Below are positions 31,517 to 49,252 of a DNA stretch of 64,000 nucleotides, one piece after another. A program made the translations under genes and the position numbers. How positions within the stretch are numbered: the stretch's first letter is position 1; every line of letters begins with the position of its first letter. The stretch covers positions 1-64,000 of the forward strand of contig JAQVPJ010000002.1 of assembly GCA_028702135.1 (NCBI GenBank), read 5' to 3'. The notes below the pieces were generated by a model. That model had not been told where the DNA came from. It did not search any database and saw only the letters and a list, made by a program, of their open reading frames with translations. This DNA comes from Eubacteriales bacterium. GTDB lineage: Bacteria; Bacillota; Clostridia; Oscillospirales; CAG-382.

Positions 31517-32233
31517 ATGAGAAACAACAAAAACATTGTTAAAATACTCCTGCTTATATCGCTCTCTGTTTTGATTCCCTTTGCGTTCGTTGTCAGCGCC
31601 ATGGCGTTGTTCGGGAGCAAAGAAGAATCCGATAATCCCGAGGCAAACTCCGGCGGTAAATATTTAGCGCAGTTATTCGGCGAAGTTTTCGATAGCAGTG
31701 ATTACGCAAACGGCGAGTTCGCGGAGATTTCTTCTTATGATAAAAGTATATATGAAGAATCGTCTGACGATATGCCGCAGACCGAAATCAGCATATATGC
31801 AGAATCGTCTGACGATATGCCGCAGACCGACATCAGCACATATGACGAAAAGAGTTCTGCGTACGGCTGCGACGGATTTATCTGGATGAGTATCGAGCAG
31901 ATGCGTGATGAGATAGAATTTTTCCGTCTGCAAAGGCATGACGGCGATACGAGCTATCCTGCCCGTGAAATCGAGCTGGACGAGTTTTTCAGAATCATTG
32001 AAACAATAAAAAAATACGAATGGAAGACACATAAGCAATACATGAACTCCTTTTCTCTTGGAGCGTCAAACATAACCGTGGTCGGTCACAATACCGTTTA
32101 CACTTATCTTATTATCGGCAGGGATGAGAGCGATCGCTGCTTTGTCTGGTCATTTTACGATTATAAAATCGCATACATTACCGAGGAGGACCTGGAGTTT
32201 ATAGAGGATATTTTATTCCGGGGCGATTACTAA
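31517..32233 (+). CDS. Hypothetical membrane-anchored protein with internal tandem duplication
   Basis: N-terminal TM helix, then repeated SIYxESSDDMPQTxI. Confidence 0.75.
   Translation: MRNNKNIVKILLLISLSVLIPFAFVVSAMALFGSKEESDNPEANSGGKYLAQLFGEVFDSSDYANGEFAEISSYDKSIYEESSDDMPQTEISIYAESSDDMPQTDISTYDEKSSAYGCDGFIWMSIEQMRDEIEFFRLQRHDGDTSYPAREIELDEFFRIIETIKKYEWKTHKQYMNSFSLGASNITVVGHNTVYTYLIIGRDESDRCFVWSFYDYKIAYITEEDLEFIEDILFRGDY
31748..31837 (+). repeat. Two tandem copies of a 45-bp unit
   Basis: tatatgAagaatcgtctgacgatatgccgcagaccgAaatcagca followed by a near-identical copy; encodes SIYEESSDDMPQTEI/SIYAESSDDMPQTDI. Confidence 0.9.
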
Positions 32234-38277: not shown

Positions 38278-39222
38278 TTGACTTGCGTATATATTGACGG
38301 CTCCGCCGGAACGACCGGCCTGCGGATTTATGAAAGATTATCGCCGAGAAACGACATAAGCCTCATAACGCTGCCGGAGGACAAACGCAGGGATGTAGAC
38401 GCAAGGCGGGAAAAGATAAATTCCTCCGACATAACCTTTTTATGCCTGCCGGACGATGCCGCGGCGGAAGCTGTATCGCTCTGTGAGAACAGCAGCACAA
38501 GGATTATAGACGCCTCAAGCGCTCACAGAACGAATCCCGGGTGGAGCTACGGCTTCCCCGAGCTGTCCGAATCGCACAGGGAAGCCGTCATGAAAAGCCG
38601 GCGCGTTTCGGTACCCGGCTGTCATGCGAGCGGATTCTGCGCCGTTGTATATCCGGTCGTAAAAGCAGAAATCCTTCCCGCGGATTATCCGGTCGTATCC
38701 CATTCCATAACCGGCTACAGCGGAGGCGGAAAAAACATGATATCGGCATATATGGATAAAACCAGGAATGAAAATTTATCCTCGCCCGGTCAGTACGCTC
38801 TCGGTGCCTGCCACAAACACCAACCGGAGATGAAAGCAGTCTGCGGTTTGGCGGCCACCCCGGTTTTCAACCCGATCGTAGCCGATTTTTACAGCGGTAT
38901 GGTTGTCAGCGTGCCAGTATATGCCTCATACCTTAACGGTATAAAAAACGCAAAAGAGCTGCATTCGTTTTTTTGCGATTATTATAAGAATGAAAAACTC
39001 ATAAAAATTCTTCCCTACTGCGAGAAAGGCACGGAAAACGGTTTTCTGTATGCCGGTGAATTATCGGGCAGGGACGATATGCGCATCCTGATAAGCGGAA
39101 ACGGTGAGCGTATCCTGATGGCGGCGCAGTTCTGCAATCTCGGAAAAGGCGCTTCGGGAGCGGCTGTTCAATGTATGAACCTTATGCTCGGAATCGATGA
39201 AACAACAGGGCTTGTAATATAA
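38278..39222 (+). CDS. argC: N-acetyl-gamma-glutamyl-phosphate reductase
   Basis: VYIDGSAGTTGLRIYERL; VPGCHASGFCAVVYP; TTG start after GGGAGGG. Confidence 0.95.
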   Translation: MTCVYIDGSAGTTGLRIYERLSPRNDISLITLPEDKRRDVDARREKINSSDITFLCLPDDAAAEAVSLCENSSTRIIDASSAHRTNPGWSYGFPELSESHREAVMKSRRVSVPGCHASGFCAVVYPVVKAEILPADYPVVSHSITGYSGGGKNMISAYMDKTRNENLSSPGQYALGACHKHQPEMKAVCGLAATPVFNPIVADFYSGMVVSVPVYASYLNGIKNAKELHSFFCDYYKNEKLIKILPYCEKGTENGFLYAGELSGRDDMRILISGNGERILMAAQFCNLGKGASGAAVQCMNLMLGIDETTGLVI

Positions 39223-39239
39223 TAAGGAGAAGGATATAA

Positions 39240-40454
39240 ATGAATTTTATTGACGGAGGAGTATGTGCTCCAAAGGGATATAAAGCAAACGGGGTACATT
39301 GCGGAATACGCAAAAATAAGCAAAAAAAAGACCTCGCTCTGATTTTCAGCGAGAAAAAAGCAGCGGCTGCTGCAATTTATACTCAGAATTCCGTAAAAGG
39401 CGCACCGATAATAGTAACACAGAAAAACCTGTTGATACCGTATGCAAATGCGATAATATGCAACAGCGGAAACGCCAATACCTGCAATGCAAACGGCATT
39501 GAGATTGCCGGAGGTATTTGCGCCCTCACCGCAAAAGAATTGGGAATCCTTCCGTCGGATGTGATAATTGCGTCAACCGGAGTTATAGGACAGCCGCTGT
39601 ATATAGAGCCTTTCGAGAGCGGGATCCCCGCTCTTGCAGAGGGTTTGAGCGAAACCGGCAGCGATGCCGCCGCCGAGGCGATTATGACTACCGACACGGT
39701 AAAAAAGGAGCTTGCAGTCAGCTTTACGATAGGCGGAAAAGTTTGTAAAATAGGCGGAATCGCAAAGGGTTCGGGAATGATCCATCCTAACATGGCGACA
39801 ATGCTTGTTTTTCTTACCACGGATACCGCCATAAGTCCGATAATGCTCCAAAAAGCGTTAAAAGAGGATGCCGACGGCAGCTTTAACATGATAAGCATCG
39901 ACAAAGACACCTCCACAAACGATATGGTGTGTATTTTAGCCAACGGTCTTGCGGGCAACCCCGCAATAGAAACCGAGGGTACGGAATATATCGAATTTAA
40001 AAAAGCGTTATGCGCCGTAACTCAGAAGCTCTGCAAGTCAATCGCCAAGGACGGCGAGGGAGCTGCAAAGCTGATCGAATGCGAGGTAACCAACGCTGGC
40101 AGTCTGAAAGATGCAAGAGCAGTAGCTAAAAGCGTTATATCGTCAAATCTTGTGAAATCGGCTATGTTCGGCTCAGATGCAAACTGGGGAAGGGTATTAT
40201 GCGCTGTCGGATATTCGGGTGTAAATGTTGACACCGAAAAAATAGATGTCTCGTTCTGTTCCTCCAAGGGTGAGATTATGGTATGCAATAATGGTTTCGG
40301 CATAGAATTTTCAGAGCAGAGGGCAAAGGAGATCCTTTTATGCGACGAGATAAAAATAATGATAAATCTCAATGCGGGTAGCGATAAAGCGACCGCATGG
40401 GGCTGCGACCTCACCTATGATTACGTCAAAATAAACGGCGACTACAGAACGTAA
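39240..40454 (+). CDS. argJ: Bifunctional ornithine acetyltransferase/N-acetylglutamate synthase
   Basis: AIICNSGNANTCNA; KGSGMIHPNMATMLVFLTTD (autocleavage site). Confidence 0.96.
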   Translation: MNFIDGGVCAPKGYKANGVHCGIRKNKQKKDLALIFSEKKAAAAAIYTQNSVKGAPIIVTQKNLLIPYANAIICNSGNANTCNANGIEIAGGICALTAKELGILPSDVIIASTGVIGQPLYIEPFESGIPALAEGLSETGSDAAAEAIMTTDTVKKELAVSFTIGGKVCKIGGIAKGSGMIHPNMATMLVFLTTDTAISPIMLQKALKEDADGSFNMISIDKDTSTNDMVCILANGLAGNPAIETEGTEYIEFKKALCAVTQKLCKSIAKDGEGAAKLIECEVTNAGSLKDARAVAKSVISSNLVKSAMFGSDANWGRVLCAVGYSGVNVDTEKIDVSFCSSKGEIMVCNNGFGIEFSEQRAKEILLCDEIKIMINLNAGSDKATAWGCDLTYDYVKINGDYRT

Positions 40455-40493
40455 GAATTTACTTCCACACAAAAGATGAAAGGAAATTTCTAA

Positions 40494-41345
40494 ATGAGCA
40501 CAACAAACTCACAGCGTGCGGAGGTTCTTATAAGAGCTCTGCCGTATATACAAAAATATAACAATAAAATCGTCGTCGTAAAATACGGCGGCAACGCCAT
40601 GATAAATGAAGAACTGAAAAAAGCCGTCATGGGGGATGTGGTTTTGCTATCGCTAATAGGCGTAAAAGTGGTTCTCGTACACGGAGGCGGGCCTGAGATA
40701 ACCGAAACCCTTGCCAAAATGAATAAGGAATCGGTTTTCATAGACGGCCTTCGGGTAACAGACAGGGAGACGGCTCAGGTCGTTCAGATGGTGCTTGCGG
40801 GCAGGATAAACAAGAATCTTGTCGGGCTTATTGAGAACACCGGCGGAAAAGCGATCGGGCTTTCCGGAATAGACGGTCATATGATAAAAGCGAAAATCGC
40901 AAACGAAAAGCTAGGATATGTAGGTGAGATTACCGAGATTAACGAACAGCCCATATTGGATATACTCGACAAGGGGTATATACCGGTAATATCGTCAATA
41001 GGTTATGACTCCGAAAATAACGTGTATAACATTAACGCCGACACCGCAGCATCGGCAATAGCGGCGGCGCTGAAAGCGGAGAGCCTTATATCTATGACCG
41101 ATATATGCGGAATCCTGCGTGACAAGGACGATGTAAACACCCTGATACGCCGTATAAATGTGAGCGAGGTTCCTCAGCTTATTCGAAGCGGTGTTATTTC
41201 AGGCGGCATGATACCTAAGGTGGAGTGCTGTATCGAGGCTGTACGCAGAGGTGTAAAGAGAGTATTTATTATCGACGGCAGGGTTTTGCATTCTATCATA
41301 ATCGAAATGCTGACCGATGAGGGAATCGGAACTATGTTCCTGTAA
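40494..41345 (+). CDS. argB: Acetylglutamate kinase
   Basis: VVKYGGNAM; VLVHGGGPEI; GLRVTDRETAQVVQMVLAG. Confidence 0.97.
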   Translation: MSTTNSQRAEVLIRALPYIQKYNNKIVVVKYGGNAMINEELKKAVMGDVVLLSLIGVKVVLVHGGGPEITETLAKMNKESVFIDGLRVTDRETAQVVQMVLAGRINKNLVGLIENTGGKAIGLSGIDGHMIKAKIANEKLGYVGEITEINEQPILDILDKGYIPVISSIGYDSENNVYNINADTAASAIAAALKAESLISMTDICGILRDKDDVNTLIRRINVSEVPQLIRSGVISGGMIPKVECCIEAVRRGVKRVFIIDGRVLHSIIIEMLTDEGIGTMFL

Positions 41346-41366
41346 TCTGAAAGGAATGATTTTATT

Positions 41367-42527
41367 TTGAGTATTATCAGCGACACAGATAAATATATAG
41401 CCCACTCCTACAAAAGATTGCCTGTCGCAATAACAAGCGGAAAGGGAAGCCTTCTGTATGACGATGGCGGAAGCGAATACATCGACTTTGGCAGCGGCAT
41501 CGCCGTTAACGTATTCGGTGCTTCGGACACGGAATGGATAAGCGCGGTAACCGGGCAGCTCGGTAAAATATCACATACAAGCAATTATTATTACAGCGGG
41601 CCGCAGTCGTCCTTAGCCGCCATGCTCTGCTCAAGAACGCACTTTACCAATATGTTTTTCTGCAATTCGGGAGCGGAGGCAAATGAGAGTGCGATAAAAG
41701 CGGCAAGGAAATATTCCGCCGATAAATACGGGAGCGGCAGAAGCAAAATCGTAACGCTTAAAAACAGCTTCCACGGCAGAACGATAACAACGCTCTCAGC
41801 CACCGGACAGGACAGATTTCATAATCACTTTTTTCCGTTCACGCAGGGCTTTGAATTCGCAAAACCCAATGATTTTGCCGACACCGCAGAGAAGCTCGGC
41901 GACGACAGTGCGGCTCTGATGATAGAGCTTATACAGGGCGAGGGCGGCGTCAACACGCTTACAAGCGAGTATGTAAAAGCAGTCAGTGATTTATGCAAAA
42001 AAAAGGATATTCTTTTGATTGTAGACGAGGTGCAGACCGGACTCGGCAGGACCGGCAGATTGTTCTGCTATGAGAACTACGGAATATATCCCGATATTAT
42101 TACAACGGCAAAGGGGCTTGGCGGGGGACTTCCCATCGGGGCGGCAATGTTTGCGGAAAAAGTCGCCGGAACGCTCACACCCGGAACCCACGGCTCTACT
42201 TTCGGTGGAAACCCCGTATGTGCGGCAGGCGCGTTAAGCGTAATAAAAAGGTTGGATAATGCGCTGTTTGAGCAAGTAAATAAAAAAAGCAAGTATATAA
42301 TCGAACGCCTTTCGGCTTTAAAAAATGTAAGCGGGATTACGGGTATGGGACTGATGATTGGTATAAAGACAGTCAAAGATCCGGCGATGGTAATGGATTC
42401 CTGCTTAAAAAAAGGACTCTTAGTGCTTAATGCAAACGATAAGGTCCGCCTTCTGCCGGCACTGAACATACCCTTTGATATTCTGGAAAAAGGTATTGAT
42501 ATTTTATCGGAGGTAATTGAGGAATGA
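41367..42527 (+). CDS. argD: Acetylornithine aminotransferase
   Basis: FFCNSGAEANESAIKAARKY; LIVDEVQTGLGRTG; TTAKGLGGGLPIGA; TTG start. Confidence 0.96.
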   Translation: MSIISDTDKYIAHSYKRLPVAITSGKGSLLYDDGGSEYIDFGSGIAVNVFGASDTEWISAVTGQLGKISHTSNYYYSGPQSSLAAMLCSRTHFTNMFFCNSGAEANESAIKAARKYSADKYGSGRSKIVTLKNSFHGRTITTLSATGQDRFHNHFFPFTQGFEFAKPNDFADTAEKLGDDSAALMIELIQGEGGVNTLTSEYVKAVSDLCKKKDILLIVDEVQTGLGRTGRLFCYENYGIYPDIITTAKGLGGGLPIGAAMFAEKVAGTLTPGTHGSTFGGNPVCAAGALSVIKRLDNALFEQVNKKSKYIIERLSALKNVSGITGMGLMIGIKTVKDPAMVMDSCLKKGLLVLNANDKVRLLPALNIPFDILEKGIDILSEVIEE

Positions 42528-43426
42528 AGCATTTGCTGAAGTTGGAAGACCTGTCATGCAAAGAAATAACGGGATTGCTTAATCTTGCTGACCAGCTTAA
42601 ATATGAACAGAAGAACGGTATTGAACACAAGGTTCTTGCAGGGAAAACCTTAGGTATGATTTTCAGAAAATCTTCTACCCGTACAAGGGTTTCCTTTGAG
42701 GTGGGAATGTATCAGTTAGGCGGTCATGCGCTGTTTTTGTCCTCAAACGATCTGCAGATTGGAAGAGGCGAGGAGACTGCGGACACCATCCGCGTTTTAT
42801 CACGCTACCTTGACGGAATAATGATACGCACCTTTGAGCAGAGCGAGGTCGAGGAGATGGCTGAAAAGGGAACAATACCTATCATAAACGGACTTACGGA
42901 TTATGCTCATCCCTGTCAGGTGCTTGCGGATTTGATGACCATCAGAGAGCATAAAGGAGCGCTTGAGGGCGTTAAGCTCTGTTATATAGGTGACGGGAAC
43001 AATATGGCAAATTCGCTCATTGCAGGCGGTATCAAGGCAGGAATGAGCGTTTCCGTCGCTTGTCCCGGCTCATACCGCCCCGATGCGGAAATTATGAAGT
43101 GGGCGTCGGAAAACGGCAAATTTCTATGCACCGGGGATATTTATGCCGCAGCGGAGAACGCCGACGTTATCTATACCGATGTATGGGCTTCAATGGGGCA
43201 GGAGAGCGAAGCGGCTACACGCCGCAAGGCATTCAAGGGCTATTGCGTTGATAACAGCGTTATGAACGCCGCTAAAAAGGACGCAATCGTGCTTCATTGT
43301 CTGCCCGCACACAAGGGAGAGGAGATAACACAAGAGGTGTTTGACACCCATGCAGACGTGATATTTGACCAGGCGGAAAACAGGCTTCACGCACAGAAGG
43401 CGGTACTTGTCACTTTGCTCAAATGA
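42524..43426 (+). CDS. argF: Ornithine carbamoyltransferase
   Basis: FRKSSTRTRVSFEVGMYQLGG; HPCQVLADLMTI; VLHCLPAHKGEEI. Confidence 0.96.
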   Translation: MKHLLKLEDLSCKEITGLLNLADQLKYEQKNGIEHKVLAGKTLGMIFRKSSTRTRVSFEVGMYQLGGHALFLSSNDLQIGRGEETADTIRVLSRYLDGIMIRTFEQSEVEEMAEKGTIPIINGLTDYAHPCQVLADLMTIREHKGALEGVKLCYIGDGNNMANSLIAGGIKAGMSVSVACPGSYRPDAEIMKWASENGKFLCTGDIYAAAENADVIYTDVWASMGQESEAATRRKAFKGYCVDNSVMNAAKKDAIVLHCLPAHKGEEITQEVFDTHADVIFDQAENRLHAQKAVLVTLLK

Positions 43427-43458
43427 TTTTTCAGCTTTAGATGAGAGGCGGAGTCGCT

Positions 43459-44562
43459 ATGAAAAACAATAAAAAGGCTTATATAGTGCTTGAGGACGGT
43501 CAGGTTTTCGAGGGCAGGCTTTTCGGTTCCGAGAGGGATGTAATCGGCGAGATGGTGTTTACCACCGGTATGACCGGATATATAGAAACGCTGACAGACC
43601 CGGGCTTTTACGGTCAGATAATAATACAGACCTTTCCTTTAATCGGAAATTACGGTGTTATGCCTTCCGATTCCGAGAGTACAGACGACAGCATCAGTGC
43701 GGCAGGATATGTCGTCAGGGAAAAATGCGACCTGCCCTCAAACTTCCGCAGTGAGGAGGATATAGATTCCTTTTTAAAAAGAAAGGGAATCGTGGGCGTA
43801 TACGGCGTGGACACACGTCTGCTTACAGGCATTATCAGGGAGAAGGGCGTTCTCAACGCAATGATATGCACCGACAAGACAAAAGCGGACTTAAATACGA
43901 TAGCCGGCTTCACCGTCAGGGATGCGATAAAGAATACGAGCCACAGTGAAAAAAAGGTTTACGGAATATCCCGGCGCTTATACAGGGTTGCACTAATAGA
44001 TTACGGCGTAAAGCGTAGTATAATCCGCATGCTCAATGAGCACGGCTGTGAGGTGACGATTTTTCCGTATGATGTAAAAGCAGAGGAGATTTCGGGCGGG
44101 TGCTTTGACGGTCTTATGCTGTCCAACGGTCCGGGTGACCCCAAACAGAACGGGTATTGTATAGAACAACTGCGGCTTCTTATCGGCGTTCTGCCCATAT
44201 TCGGTATTTGTATCGGACACCAGCTGTTAGCTCTTGCTTTCGGCGGCGACACAAAAAAACTAAAATACGGTCACAGAGGCGAAAACCAGCCGGTAACAAA
44301 CCTTGAGACGGGCAGGACCTATATAACCTCACAGAACCACGGTTATGTCGTCGACAGCGACAGCATAAATAAAGACGTGGGCAGGCTTTCTTATATAAAC
44401 GCAAACGACAGCACTTGCGAGGGGATGGAATATCCCGGACATAAGGCTTTTTCGGTGCAGTTTCATCCCGAAGCGTGCGGCGGCCCGCTCGACACGGAGT
44501 TTTTGTTCGATGATTTTATTGAGCTTATAAAAAAGGAGGCTTCCGTTAATGCCGAGGAATAA
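43459..44562 (+). CDS. carA: Carbamoyl-phosphate synthase small subunit
   Basis: FTTGMTGYIETLTDPGFYGQII; GICIGHQLLALAFGG; VQFHPEACGGP. Confidence 0.96.
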   Translation: MKNNKKAYIVLEDGQVFEGRLFGSERDVIGEMVFTTGMTGYIETLTDPGFYGQIIIQTFPLIGNYGVMPSDSESTDDSISAAGYVVREKCDLPSNFRSEEDIDSFLKRKGIVGVYGVDTRLLTGIIREKGVLNAMICTDKTKADLNTIAGFTVRDAIKNTSHSEKKVYGISRRLYRVALIDYGVKRSIIRMLNEHGCEVTIFPYDVKAEEISGGCFDGLMLSNGPGDPKQNGYCIEQLRLLIGVLPIFGICIGHQLLALAFGGDTKKLKYGHRGENQPVTNLETGRTYITSQNHGYVVDSDSINKDVGRLSYINANDSTCEGMEYPGHKAFSVQFHPEACGGPLDTEFLFDDFIELIKKEASVNAEE

Positions 44563-47500
44563 TGCGATAAAAAAAGTGCTTGTAATCGGCAGCGGACCTA
44601 TTGTAATCGGTCAGGCGGCGGAGTTCGATTATGCCGGAACGCAGGCATGCCGCGTTCTTAAAAACGAGGGAATAAAAGTCGTGCTCGTCAACTCCAATCC
44701 GGCGACTATAATGACCGACAGGAAGTTTGCCGATTTTATTTATCTCGAGCCGCTTAACGGTGAAACCGTTAAAAGAATAATCCAAAAGGAAAAACCAGAC
44801 AGTCTGCTTGCCGGATTCGGCGGCCAGACAGGGCTTACGATTGCAATGCAGCTGACAAAGGAGGGCTTTCTTGAAAAAAACGGAGTAAGGCTTATTGGCA
44901 CAAATGCCGGGGCGATAGCCAAAGCCGAGGACAGGCAGCTATTTAAGGATACTATGAATTCGATAGGTCAGCCGACCATACCCTCCGCAACGGTATACAC
45001 GTCCGAGGAGGCGAGCTTGGCGGCAGAGAGCATCGGTTATCCTGTTATCGTCCGTCCGGCGTATACGCTCGGAGGTGCGGGCGGTGGTGTTGCGTATGAC
45101 AAGTCCCAGCTCATGGCGATTACAGGCAACGGTCTGCAGATGTCCCCTATCCATCAGGTTTTGATAGAAAAATATATATATGGCTGGAAAGAAATAGAGT
45201 TTGAGGTCATTCGCGACAGCAGAGGGAATGCGGTAACGGTGTGCAGTATGGAAAATATAGATCCGGTCGGAATCCATACCGGCGACAGTATCGTCGTCGC
45301 CCCTGCGCTGACATTGTCGGACAAGGAATACCAGATGCTCCGGAGCGCGTCTTTGAAGATAATCTCAGAGCTGGGCATCGAGGGCGGCTGCAACTGCCAG
45401 TTCGCTTTAGATCCCGACAGCTTTGATTACGCCGTTATCGAGGTAAACCCCCGTGTCTCCCGTTCCTCTGCTCTTGCAAGCAAAGCATCGGGTTATCCGA
45501 TAGCAAAGGTTGCCGCAAAAATCGCTCTCGGCTACACGCTCGATGAGATTAAAAACGATATAACGGGAAAAACTTGTGCCTGCTTTGAACCCGCTATGGA
45601 TTATGTCGTGCTCAAAATGCCCAAATGGCCTTTTGACAAATTTGTTTCAGCAAACCGCAAGTTAGGCACACAGATGAAAGCTACCGGCGAAACGATGGCG
45701 ATAGCAACCAACCTCGAATCCGCCTTCCTAAAATCCCTCCGAGGGAGTGAGATTTCGTTGGACACTCCAAATCATCCGTATTTTAAGGGTATCGCAGATT
45801 TCGACATAATAAAAAGCATAGAAAACAGCGAGGATTTGCGTGTTTTTGCCCTTTTTGAGGCAATTAAGAGGGGCATTTCGGTTGACATAATGCACGAAAT
45901 CACTAAAATCGACAGATTTTTCTTATATAAATTGAAGAATATTGCGGACTATGAGAATGAAATTTCCTCTTTTGTACTCACGCAGGAGATGTATGAGAGG
46001 GGAAAAAAGCTGGGTTATACGGACAGGGCTATTTTTGAGATAAGTGGTCAGGGAATAAAGAATCCATCATTAAATGGTGAGGGAATAAAGGATCCGTCGT
46101 TAACCTTGTCGGGGAGTGGTGGGGAGGGAATGAATCCTTCATCAACTTCATCGGTAAGCTGTAAGGTGGGAATTAATCCATCGTTAACCGTGTCGGGGAG
46201 CGGTGAGGAAGGAACAAGCCCATCATCAATATCATCGGTAAGCTGTAAGGTGGGAATGAATCCGTCGTTAACCTCGTTGGGGAGTGGTCAGGAGGGAATG
46301 AATCCGTCATCAATTTCATCGGTAAGCTGTAATGTGGGAATGAATCCGTCGTTAACCTCATCGGGGAGTGGTGAGGAGGGAACTATTTCGTCATCAACTT
46401 CATCGGTAAGCTGTAAGGAGGGGATGAATCCATCGTTAACCTTGTCGGGGAGCGGAGATAGAGTAACTAATCCGTCATTGACTTCTTCGGGGAGTGGTGG
46501 GGAGGGAATGAATCCGTCATTAGCTTCTTTGGGGAGCGGTGAGGAAGGAACGAATCTGACATCAACCTCATCGGTAAGCTGTAATGTGGGAATGAATCCG
46601 TCATCAGACTTGTCGGGGAGCGGCGAGGAGGTAACGAATACGTCATCAACCTCATTGGTAAGCTGTAAGGTGGGAATGAATCCGTCATTAGTTTCTTCGG
46701 TGAGTGGTGAGGGGAAAATACATCGGTTATTTCCCTCATATAAAATGGTTGACACCTGCGCGGCGGAATTTATGGCAGAGACACCCTACTTTTACTCATG
46801 CTATGACAGCTACTGCGAAGCGGCCTCAACAGTAAACCTGCAAAAAGACAGGATTATTGTGCTCGGCTCCGGGCCTATACGTATAGGGCAGGGGATTGAA
46901 TTCGATTACTCCTGCGTCCATTGTGCCGAAACGCTCAGGGAGTTGAGATACGAGGTTATTATAATCAATAACAATCCCGAAACCGTTTCCACCGATTTCG
47001 ACATATCCGACAGATTGTATTTTGAGCCGCTTACCGAGGAGGACGTGCTCGGGGTTATAAGAACAGAAAAACCTGTGGGTGTTGTCGTCGCTTTTGGCGG
47101 TCAGACTGCGATAAAGCTCGCAAAACCTCTTGAAAAAGCGGGTATAAGGATTTTCGGCACAAGTGCAGAGGGGATAGACATAGCCGAGGACAGAGAGCGT
47201 TTTGACGACCTTTTATCACGTTTTGGTATAAAACGCCCTGTCGGGCACAGTGTTTTGACTACGGAAGAAGCTGTAGATGCCGCCGAGGATATAGGCTATC
47301 CGGTCCTGCTGCGTCCGTCCTATGTCATAGGCGGTCAGAATATGACCATCGCTTATACAAGGGAGGATGTTGTGCGCTATATGCATATTATCCTCTTGCA
47401 GGGGATAACGAATCCCGTACTCGTTGACAAATACATGAGCGGAACAGAGCTTGAGGTAGACGTTATTTCCGATGGCGAAGAGGTGCTCATTCCCGGAATT

Positions 47501-49252
47501 ATGGAGCATATCGAGAGGGCGGGGGTTCACAGCGGGGATTCTATCGCCATTTATCCGCCCGTTTCCATAAACGATAAAATGCTTACGCATATAACGGATT
47601 GCTCAATTAAGCTCGCAAAAGCACTCGGTACAAAGGGTCTTGTAAATATCCAGTATCTCATCTCTCATAACGAGCTTTATGTTATAGAGGTCAATCCGCG
47701 TGCATCGAGAACCGTACCCTATATAAGCAAGGTCACCGGGGTTCCCATGGTGGAGATTGCGACAAAGGTTATGGTCGGTCATATGCTTTCGGAACTGGGC
47801 TATACCGGCGGATTATATAAAATACCGCCCTATATGGCGGTAAAGGTGCCTGTATTTTCGTTTGAAAAGCTATCGGATGTAAACTCGGCTCTCGGACCGG
47901 AAATGAAGTCGACCGGAGAGGTGCTGGGTATCGGAAGAACACTTAACGAAGCGTTATTCAAGGGGCTTGTATCGGCAGGGTTCGATTTAGACTTTTCCGC
48001 ACGTGAAGAAAGAAAGGGAGTAATCCTTTCGGTCTCGGACAAGGATAAGTTTGAAATAGTCGGACTTGCCAAGAAATTGGACGACCTCGGAATGAGGATA
48101 TACGCAACAAAAGGAACAGCGAGTGCGATTTCATCGCTGGGTATTGATGTAACGGTGCTGAACAAGTTCGGCGAGGACAACAGCATTATAAAGACTCTTG
48201 AGAGCGGAAGTATTCGTTTTGTAGTAATCACGGGCAGGGGCGAACGGGACTCTGTAAGGGATTATATAGAGATTCACCGCAAATGCATATTACAGTCAGT
48301 TGCTTGTCTGACCTCTCTGGATACCGCAAATGCTCTTGCGGATATAATCGCATCGCGGTTCAATATTCGAAACACCGAGCTTGTGGACATAAACAACCTG
48401 CGCACAGAAAAGAGCCACCTTAATTTTGTAAAGATGCAGGGAACCGGTAACGATTATATATATTTTGAGAATTTCGGCGGTGAGATAACCTGCCCCGAAT
48501 CGCTTTCGATAACGGTTTGCGACCGAAATTACGGTATAGGCGGCGACGGCATCGTGCTTATAGAAAAAAGCGATGCTGCCGACGCTAAAATGCGTATTTT
48601 CAATAAGGACGGCAGCGAGGGAAAGATGGCGGGTAACAGCATACGCTGTGTGGGCAAGTATCTTTATGATAATAAGCATGTTGATAAGGAGAATCTGACG
48701 ATAGAGACGGCAAGCGGGATAAAAAAGCTGAAGCTGTATATCTTCGGCGGTCAGGTGCGTTTTGTCAGCGTCGATATGGGCAAAGCAGAGCTTGATCCGA
48801 AAAAGATTCCCGTTATGCTTGAAGGCGAATCGGTCATAGACAGAGAAGCGGATATTGAGGGGAAGACTTACAGAATTACCTGCGTTTCGGTGGGAAACCC
48901 TCATTGCGTGGTTTTTTGCGACAGGGTTGATGCTGTTGTTCTGCCGAAAGTCGGCCCTCAGTTTGAGAAAAATCCGCTTTTTCCCGAACGCATAAACACC
49001 GAATTTGTAAGGGTGGTTAATAAAAGCACCTTGAAAATGCGTGTATGGGAGCGCGGAAACGGAGAGACCTTTGCCTGCGGAACCGGCGCATGTGCCGCTG
49101 TTGTTGCTGCTGTGGAAAATGGCTACTGTAAAAAAAATGAGGACATTACGGTAAAGCTCAAGGGCGGCGATTTGATTGTAAACTACTCCGACGAGGCGGT
49201 TACCCTTACGGGCAACGCCGACTTTATCTGCGAGGGCAGAACGGTTTATTAA
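44549..49252 (+). CDS. carB: Carbamoyl-phosphate synthase large subunit with internal repeat insert and C-terminal DapF fusion
   Basis: Two ATP-grasp halves (GSGPIVIGQAAEFDYAGTQA; GSGPIRIGQGIEFDYSCVH), MGS domain, then a full DapF from LNFVKMQGTGNDY to the C-terminus; 1567 aa without a stop. Confidence 0.95.
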   Translation: MPRNNAIKKVLVIGSGPIVIGQAAEFDYAGTQACRVLKNEGIKVVLVNSNPATIMTDRKFADFIYLEPLNGETVKRIIQKEKPDSLLAGFGGQTGLTIAMQLTKEGFLEKNGVRLIGTNAGAIAKAEDRQLFKDTMNSIGQPTIPSATVYTSEEASLAAESIGYPVIVRPAYTLGGAGGGVAYDKSQLMAITGNGLQMSPIHQVLIEKYIYGWKEIEFEVIRDSRGNAVTVCSMENIDPVGIHTGDSIVVAPALTLSDKEYQMLRSASLKIISELGIEGGCNCQFALDPDSFDYAVIEVNPRVSRSSALASKASGYPIAKVAAKIALGYTLDEIKNDITGKTCACFEPAMDYVVLKMPKWPFDKFVSANRKLGTQMKATGETMAIATNLESAFLKSLRGSEISLDTPNHPYFKGIADFDIIKSIENSEDLRVFALFEAIKRGISVDIMHEITKIDRFFLYKLKNIADYENEISSFVLTQEMYERGKKLGYTDRAIFEISGQGIKNPSLNGEGIKDPSLTLSGSGGEGMNPSSTSSVSCKVGINPSLTVSGSGEEGTSPSSISSVSCKVGMNPSLTSLGSGQEGMNPSSISSVSCNVGMNPSLTSSGSGEEGTISSSTSSVSCKEGMNPSLTLSGSGDRVTNPSLTSSGSGGEGMNPSLASLGSGEEGTNLTSTSSVSCNVGMNPSSDLSGSGEEVTNTSSTSLVSCKVGMNPSLVSSVSGEGKIHRLFPSYKMVDTCAAEFMAETPYFYSCYDSYCEAASTVNLQKDRIIVLGSGPIRIGQGIEFDYSCVHCAETLRELRYEVIIINNNPETVSTDFDISDRLYFEPLTEEDVLGVIRTEKPVGVVVAFGGQTAIKLAKPLEKAGIRIFGTSAEGIDIAEDRERFDDLLSRFGIKRPVGHSVLTTEEAVDAAEDIGYPVLLRPSYVIGGQNMTIAYTREDVVRYMHIILLQGITNPVLVDKYMSGTELEVDVISDGEEVLIPGIMEHIERAGVHSGDSIAIYPPVSINDKMLTHITDCSIKLAKALGTKGLVNIQYLISHNELYVIEVNPRASRTVPYISKVTGVPMVEIATKVMVGHMLSELGYTGGLYKIPPYMAVKVPVFSFEKLSDVNSALGPEMKSTGEVLGIGRTLNEALFKGLVSAGFDLDFSAREERKGVILSVSDKDKFEIVGLAKKLDDLGMRIYATKGTASAISSLGIDVTVLNKFGEDNSIIKTLESGSIRFVVITGRGERDSVRDYIEIHRKCILQSVACLTSLDTANALADIIASRFNIRNTELVDINNLRTEKSHLNFVKMQGTGNDYIYFENFGGEITCPESLSITVCDRNYGIGGDGIVLIEKSDAADAKMRIFNKDGSEGKMAGNSIRCVGKYLYDNKHVDKENLTIETASGIKKLKLYIFGGQVRFVSVDMGKAELDPKKIPVMLEGESVIDREADIEGKTYRITCVSVGNPHCVVFCDRVDAVVLPKVGPQFEKNPLFPERINTEFVRVVNKSTLKMRVWERGNGETFACGTGACAAVVAAVENGYCKKNEDITVKLKGGDLIVNYSDEAVTLTGNADFICEGRTVY
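46052..46714. repeat. About 15-unit, 42-bp-period repeat array inside carB, alternating two unit types
   Basis: 14-aa units of type GMNPSSxSSVSCKV and GMNPSLTSSGSGEE; DNA consensus GGAATGAATCCGTC...GGTAAGCTGTAAGGTG / ...GGGGAGTGGTGAGGAG. Confidence 0.95.
48419..49252 (+). other. dapF: DapF (diaminopimelate epimerase) domain of the CarB fusion
   Basis: GIGGDGIVLIE, MAGNSIRCVGKYLYD and RGNGETFACGTGACAA: both catalytic Cys motifs present. Confidence 0.92.

Follow-up and report, generated by a model that had tools for sequence, protein, structure and literature searches.

The 663-bp tandem array at 46052-46714 of the window (the whole stretch of 64,000 nucleotides that was analyzed) is probably an intragenic tandem-repeat expansion, specific to its lineage, that was born in situ from a native linker of the enzyme CarB; the enzyme would have tolerated it, and its units would later have diverged under mild constraint. 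The case for birth in place, built from sequence comparisons, is strong but short of proof. The array is known from one genome.

Tandem Repeats Finder (TRF), autocorrelation and the open frame confirmed the 663-bp (221 codons) in-frame array reported in a preliminary description. The array consisted of one 30-bp unit, one 45-bp unit and fourteen 42-bp units, i.e., 16 units in all rather than the 15 or so first counted. The constant unit length of 42 bp given in that description did not extend to the two edge units, while the preservation of the frame was upheld: the array frame contained no stop, compared with 29 and 14 in the other two forward frames. All units were multiples of 3 bp, in frame within the intact 1567-aa ORF, and the array started straight after the native ISGQ. 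With head-to-tail units inside an ORF and a length that is a multiple of 3, it is an intragenic tandem repeat. The core units were of two types, A and B, arranged as ABABABABBBABAB, and the six Cys noticed earlier were found one in each A-type unit. The coordinates of the array and of its surroundings are listed in Table 1.

Table 1. Features of the array, its host gene and the upstream operon genes in the window.
Feature	Position	Strand	Evidence and remarks
argC, argJ, argB, argD, argF	38278..43426	+	Arginine operon upstream of carAB; ORFs, Pfam families
carA, partner glutaminase subunit	43441..44562	+	Pfam CPSase_sm_chain and GATase
carB-dapF fusion ORF, 1567 aa, array inside	44549..49252	+	ORF; Pfam CPSase_L_D1/D2/D3, MGS, DAP_epimerase; E. 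coli CarB (1bxr) and DapF structures matched
Native ISGQ codons (ATA AGT GGT CAG), left flank	46040..46051	+	Conserved in same-genus relatives
Edge unit 1	46052..46081	+	30 bp, GIKNPSLNGE; resembles native KIENP; TRF 30-bp repeat
Edge unit 2	46082..46126	+	45 bp, GIKDPSLTLSGSGGE; transitional in sequence from native segment to core units
Fourteen 42-bp core units	46127..46714	+	A = GMNPSSTSSVSCKV type (six), B = GMNPSLTSSGSGEE type (eight)
Right flank KIHRLFPSYKMVD	46715..46753	+	Matches native KIENPLYPSYKMVD

TRF analysis revealed a period of 84 bp with 7.1 copies (46092-46690, score 727), which is due to the alternation of A and B units; a period of 42 bp with 13.8 copies; and a 30-bp edge repeat at 46041-46103. 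Positional autocorrelation within the array was 0.64 at 42 bp and 0.77 at 84 bp, and at most 0.36 at shifts that were not multiples of 42; in the carB sequence upstream of the array it was no higher than 0.29 at any shift between 5 and 199 bp. With at most 2 mismatches allowed, the motif GGAATGAATCCGTC occurred 10 times in the window vs. 0.45 expected, and nine of the 10 occurrences were inside the array. The repeat signal is far above chance. Units of type A shared a mean identity of 84% and those of type B 78%, compared with 66% for A-B pairs; the longest exact repeat inside the array was 35 bp, and no two units were identical. The insert product of about 220 aa was rich in Ser, Gly, Thr, and Asn, and had no Pfam domain match. 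An RNA element was considered and rejected, with no Rfam match and an ordinary RNA fold (z = -1.16). A 155-aa minus-strand ORF (46288-46755), a candidate antisense gene, was the mirror of the repeat.

The array-bearing enzyme is a CarB-DapF fusion, which the preliminary description did not mention. Its CarB part contained two CPSase halves, the oligomerisation domain and MGS (Pfam D1, D2, D3, and MGS), and E. coli CarB aligned along both halves. Pfam CPSase_L_D3 covered residues 423-497 of the fusion protein. The alignment with E. coli CarB reached query residue 500 at E. coli residue 507 and resumed at 521; the insert therefore lies close to where the oligomerisation domain ends (E. coli CarB residues 401-552; PMC6245113), before the second CPSase half. 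CarB tetramers form across this domain, and oligomerisation as such has no effect on regulation (reviewed in PMC6245113), so that tolerance of the insert is plausible. Judging from its position between the CPSase halves, with conserved motifs spared, the enzyme most likely stays functional with the array. The earlier proposal of a repeat tolerated at a surface loop held for the loop, which is at the end of the oligomerisation region, and, with the rest of the enzyme intact, tolerance is likely; the surface exposure of the linker carrying the insert is what we infer. A single-sequence AlphaFold model, made without an alignment, had a mean pLDDT of 43 with no residue above 70 and is too poor for use.

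Both same-genus relatives also had CarB and DapF in a single ORF, with the DapF motif GTGND directly visible in each. A CarB ORF of this same length, about 1340-1357 aa, occurred in many order relatives. This shared ORF length suggests an old fusion joining an arginine enzyme and a lysine/peptidoglycan enzyme.

The array-bearing CarB is the last gene of an argCJBDF-carAB operon. A second carAB was found on contig C26 (L145, G000:C26:8000-24000) in a pyr operon, and its CarB had no array; the cluster read pyrC, carA, carB, pyrK, pyrD, pyrF, pyrE, and pyrB, as recognised by sequence reading with no family search. Two dedicated CPSases are known in Bacillus and others (PMC6245113), and the present arrangement resembles that of Bacillus subtilis, where the arg and pyr contexts each have a separate carAB set (PMC6245113). 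What differs from the B. subtilis pairing is that the arginine-type CarB carries the array and is a fusion with DapF, as ORF length suggests for many order relatives too. Because a second carAB exists and the array is in the arginine-associated enzyme, calling the array-bearing CarB essential, as was done at first, is unjustified from sequence. The second carAB may further buffer the impact of the array.

At the array site, the same-genus relatives had the native linker alone, ISG[QH]KIENP[LI]YPSYKMVDTC; two same-genus genomes read ISGHKIENPLYPSYKMVDTC and ISGQKIENPIYPSYKMVDTC. This agrees with the earlier statement that ordinary CarB has a short segment here, and where a fixed, non-repetitive domain was looked for, every relative inspected had the native linker only. 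About 150 order-level ORF lengths, part of the rows of the order survey, were listed, among which nine long or slightly long CarB ORFs (1373-1638 aa) were opened; none had an insert at the array site, and their extra length sat away from it. Several order relatives (L148-L156) had CarB ORFs of 1426-1638 aa, with the extra length mostly upstream of the end of the first CPSase half. The post-oligomerisation linker was variable in sequence across the order, and that of E. coli was about 8 residues longer.

The array segment SGQEGMNP aligned ungapped to the native SGQKIENP. The consensus of B was slid along the proteins of the relatives for ungapped 8-residue matches (about 1000 8-mers per protein). 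In L035 and L037, two of the three closest relatives, the best 8-mer was the linker itself (SGQKIENP and SGQKIRNP vs. SGQEGMNP/SGEEGMNP in the array), the fraction of positions scoring as high being 0.001; in the third, L034, the linker match was within the top 1% of 8-mers. Most relatives more distant than these three gave no clear linker-unit signal. The native AGTGGTCAGG (ISGQ codons) recurred exactly in a B unit at 46283, in the same register and immediately before the unit start; an exact match to any unit end was found for 7 of the 63,306 other 9-mers of the window. The edge units GIKNPSLNGE and GIKDPSLTLSGSGGE were intermediate between the native linker and the core units, and the right border SGEG-KIHRLFPSYK resembled SGQ-KIENPLYPSYK of the same-genus linker (ISGQ-KIENPLYPSYK-MVDTC). 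In DNA-level alignment of a core unit with the linker of the relatives, similarity was not above that of shuffles; the in situ case thus depends on the 8 residues, the 10-bp match and the edge units, and some of the linker resemblance could also be produced by microhomology at a site of insertion.

In the course of events proposed here, the native linker that follows the oligomerisation domain of CarB (ISGQ-KI.NP-) would have been duplicated in frame, first as a unit of about 30 bp (10 aa), then as a 42-bp unit, and then as an 84-bp A-B dimer. The dimer may have been amplified through replication slippage or unequal recombination, which would occur at a short direct repeat in the permissive linker, and the reading frame would have been kept because all units are multiples of 3 bp. 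After this burst, point mutations would have driven the units apart while coding constraint stayed mild, and the outcome would be an insert of about 220 aa in a length-variable linker of the arginine-operon CarB-DapF.

Units lying further apart were no less similar than closer ones (0.79 at both 84 and 252 bp, and 0.78 at 336 bp). An array that is currently expanding normally has similar neighbouring units. Since similarity was flat and no units were identical, an old burst followed by divergence fits better, and the earlier suggestion of an expanding array is weakened; the divergence of the units suggests that the array is not active now. Parsimony steps by codon position were 10/23/29 (p = 0.01), pN/pS against the own consensus was 0.29 for B and 0.69 for A, and the array had no stop, though 5-7% of single changes would create one. 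The third-position bias, the pN/pS below 1 and the lack of stops suggest that the array is translated and mildly constrained, the codon-position signal being modest and the units not independent. The CarB halves showed no marked acceleration relative to the same-genus species; the approximately 100 residues before the array were somewhat more diverged (0.60-0.63 vs. 0.70 between the two relatives), in a region that was variable in all comparisons.

It is unlikely that the array is a selected functional module, i.e., a repeat arm of acidic (B) and basic, Cys-containing (A) units altering CarB oligomerisation, tethering arginine-pathway enzymes or protecting carbamoyl phosphate. Such a module would fit the coding-type constraint, the regular A-B alternation and the regular strands that the AlphaFold model predicted about every 28 residues in the array (pLDDT 50-60). 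However, weak constraint is also expected just to keep a translated insert soluble, the A units are loosely constrained, and the same-genus relatives manage without the array. Single-sequence structure models are known to err towards regular strands when given repeats, and the low pLDDT of this alignment-free model also speaks against the module. There is only a slim chance that a linker of 8-10 residues was amplified into a repeat domain of about 220 aa that acquired a selected role, e.g., as an arm altering CPSase oligomerisation or holding arginine enzymes together. A selected role, possible but unsupported, is probably absent.

Insertion of a ready-made repeat or mobile element into carB, in the manner of the Rickettsia palindromic elements, is improbable and already largely refuted. 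The array is in frame in a metabolic gene, as such an insertion would be, and its codon usage is atypical for the operon (CAI of 0.59 in the array vs. 0.76 in the operon; AAT 16 and AAC 0; AAG 6 and AAA 0; no TCC). Amplification of a few codons would give such atypical usage, but so would a foreign origin of the DNA. Against an insertion, both edges and the unit resemble the native linker, and no inverted repeats were found in the array (0 pairs). The preliminary description had supposed an interspersed repeat, and a search for copies elsewhere in the genome and in wider collections found none: there was no second copy in the 1.97-Mb genome, none in 62 other genomes of the family or, with a protein query, among the remaining ones of the 394 order genomes, and none in the phages or plasmids searched. 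A genome contig collection gave 30 single pattern matches, approximately the number expected by chance, and a viral contig collection gave isolated single matches, also at about the chance number; neither contained an array. Weak matches in relatives were, on inspection, isolated chance stretches. A scan of viral contigs for relatives of CarB found none.

An error of assembly, in which the length or the existence of the array is wrong, is very improbable: the genome is a 38-contig draft and tandem repeats are described as error-prone in assembly (PMC6868369), but no units are identical, ordinary assembly can cope with exact internal repeats of 35 bp at most, the frame is intact and the substitution bias is of the coding type.

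The array was the largest in the sampled 858 kb of the genome, window included; the other coding arrays were at most 102 bp, and large arrays are therefore no general habit of this genome. At 31748-31849 of the window, a 45-bp in-frame tandem repeat (2.3 copies) was found in a 248-aa ORF whose start resembles a signal peptide. In L180 (17968-18335), a 142-bp tandem repeat (2.6 copies, 98% matches) had no single open frame and has the look of a recent duplication in non-coding DNA.

Neither this array nor the CarB-DapF fusion was described in the partial library searched. The array is like intragenic tandem repeats (VNTRs) such as that of tolA (PMC3477136) in its head-to-tail in-frame units, in which a change of copy number keeps the frame. 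In E. coli, contraction of the tolA repeat depends on RecA, and copy numbers between 2 and 39 gave at least partial function (PMC3477136). Unlike TolA, an envelope protein, the host of this array is a two-subunit metabolic enzyme, with the array in its middle; unlike tolA-type VNTRs, the array is in one species as far as found, and its unit divergence suggests no present activity. Like the Rickettsia palindromic elements (PMC10969869), it adds an in-frame peptide to a metabolic gene, presumed compatible with fold and function; those elements, however, are about 150 bp and dispersed in many genes, whereas the array is tandem, at one locus, and resembles its own host sequence. Assignment to that class was rejected, with neither dispersed copies nor a palindrome found. 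PARCEL (PMC2996958) is likewise a tandem in-frame repeat peptide in bacteria, but its units are of 25 residues, amphipathic, with dyad symmetry, horizontally spread and often membrane-targeted (PMC2996958), in contrast to the 14-residue, Ser/Gly-rich units without dyad symmetry at a single locus seen here; this assignment was rejected as well.

As an expansion of the native linker, the array illustrates a known type of event clearly and on an unusually large scale, with no new mechanism. The seed sequence, the intermediate edge units and the expanded array are all readable in one gene, which makes it a fairly clean case; the same-genus relatives supply the empty site, and the same cell has a repeat-free CarB paralog. 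The array bears on the birth of repeat domains inside enzymes and on the insertion tolerance of the CarB oligomerisation linker. If a selected role were true, it would be the birth of a domain caught in progress inside a metabolic enzyme.
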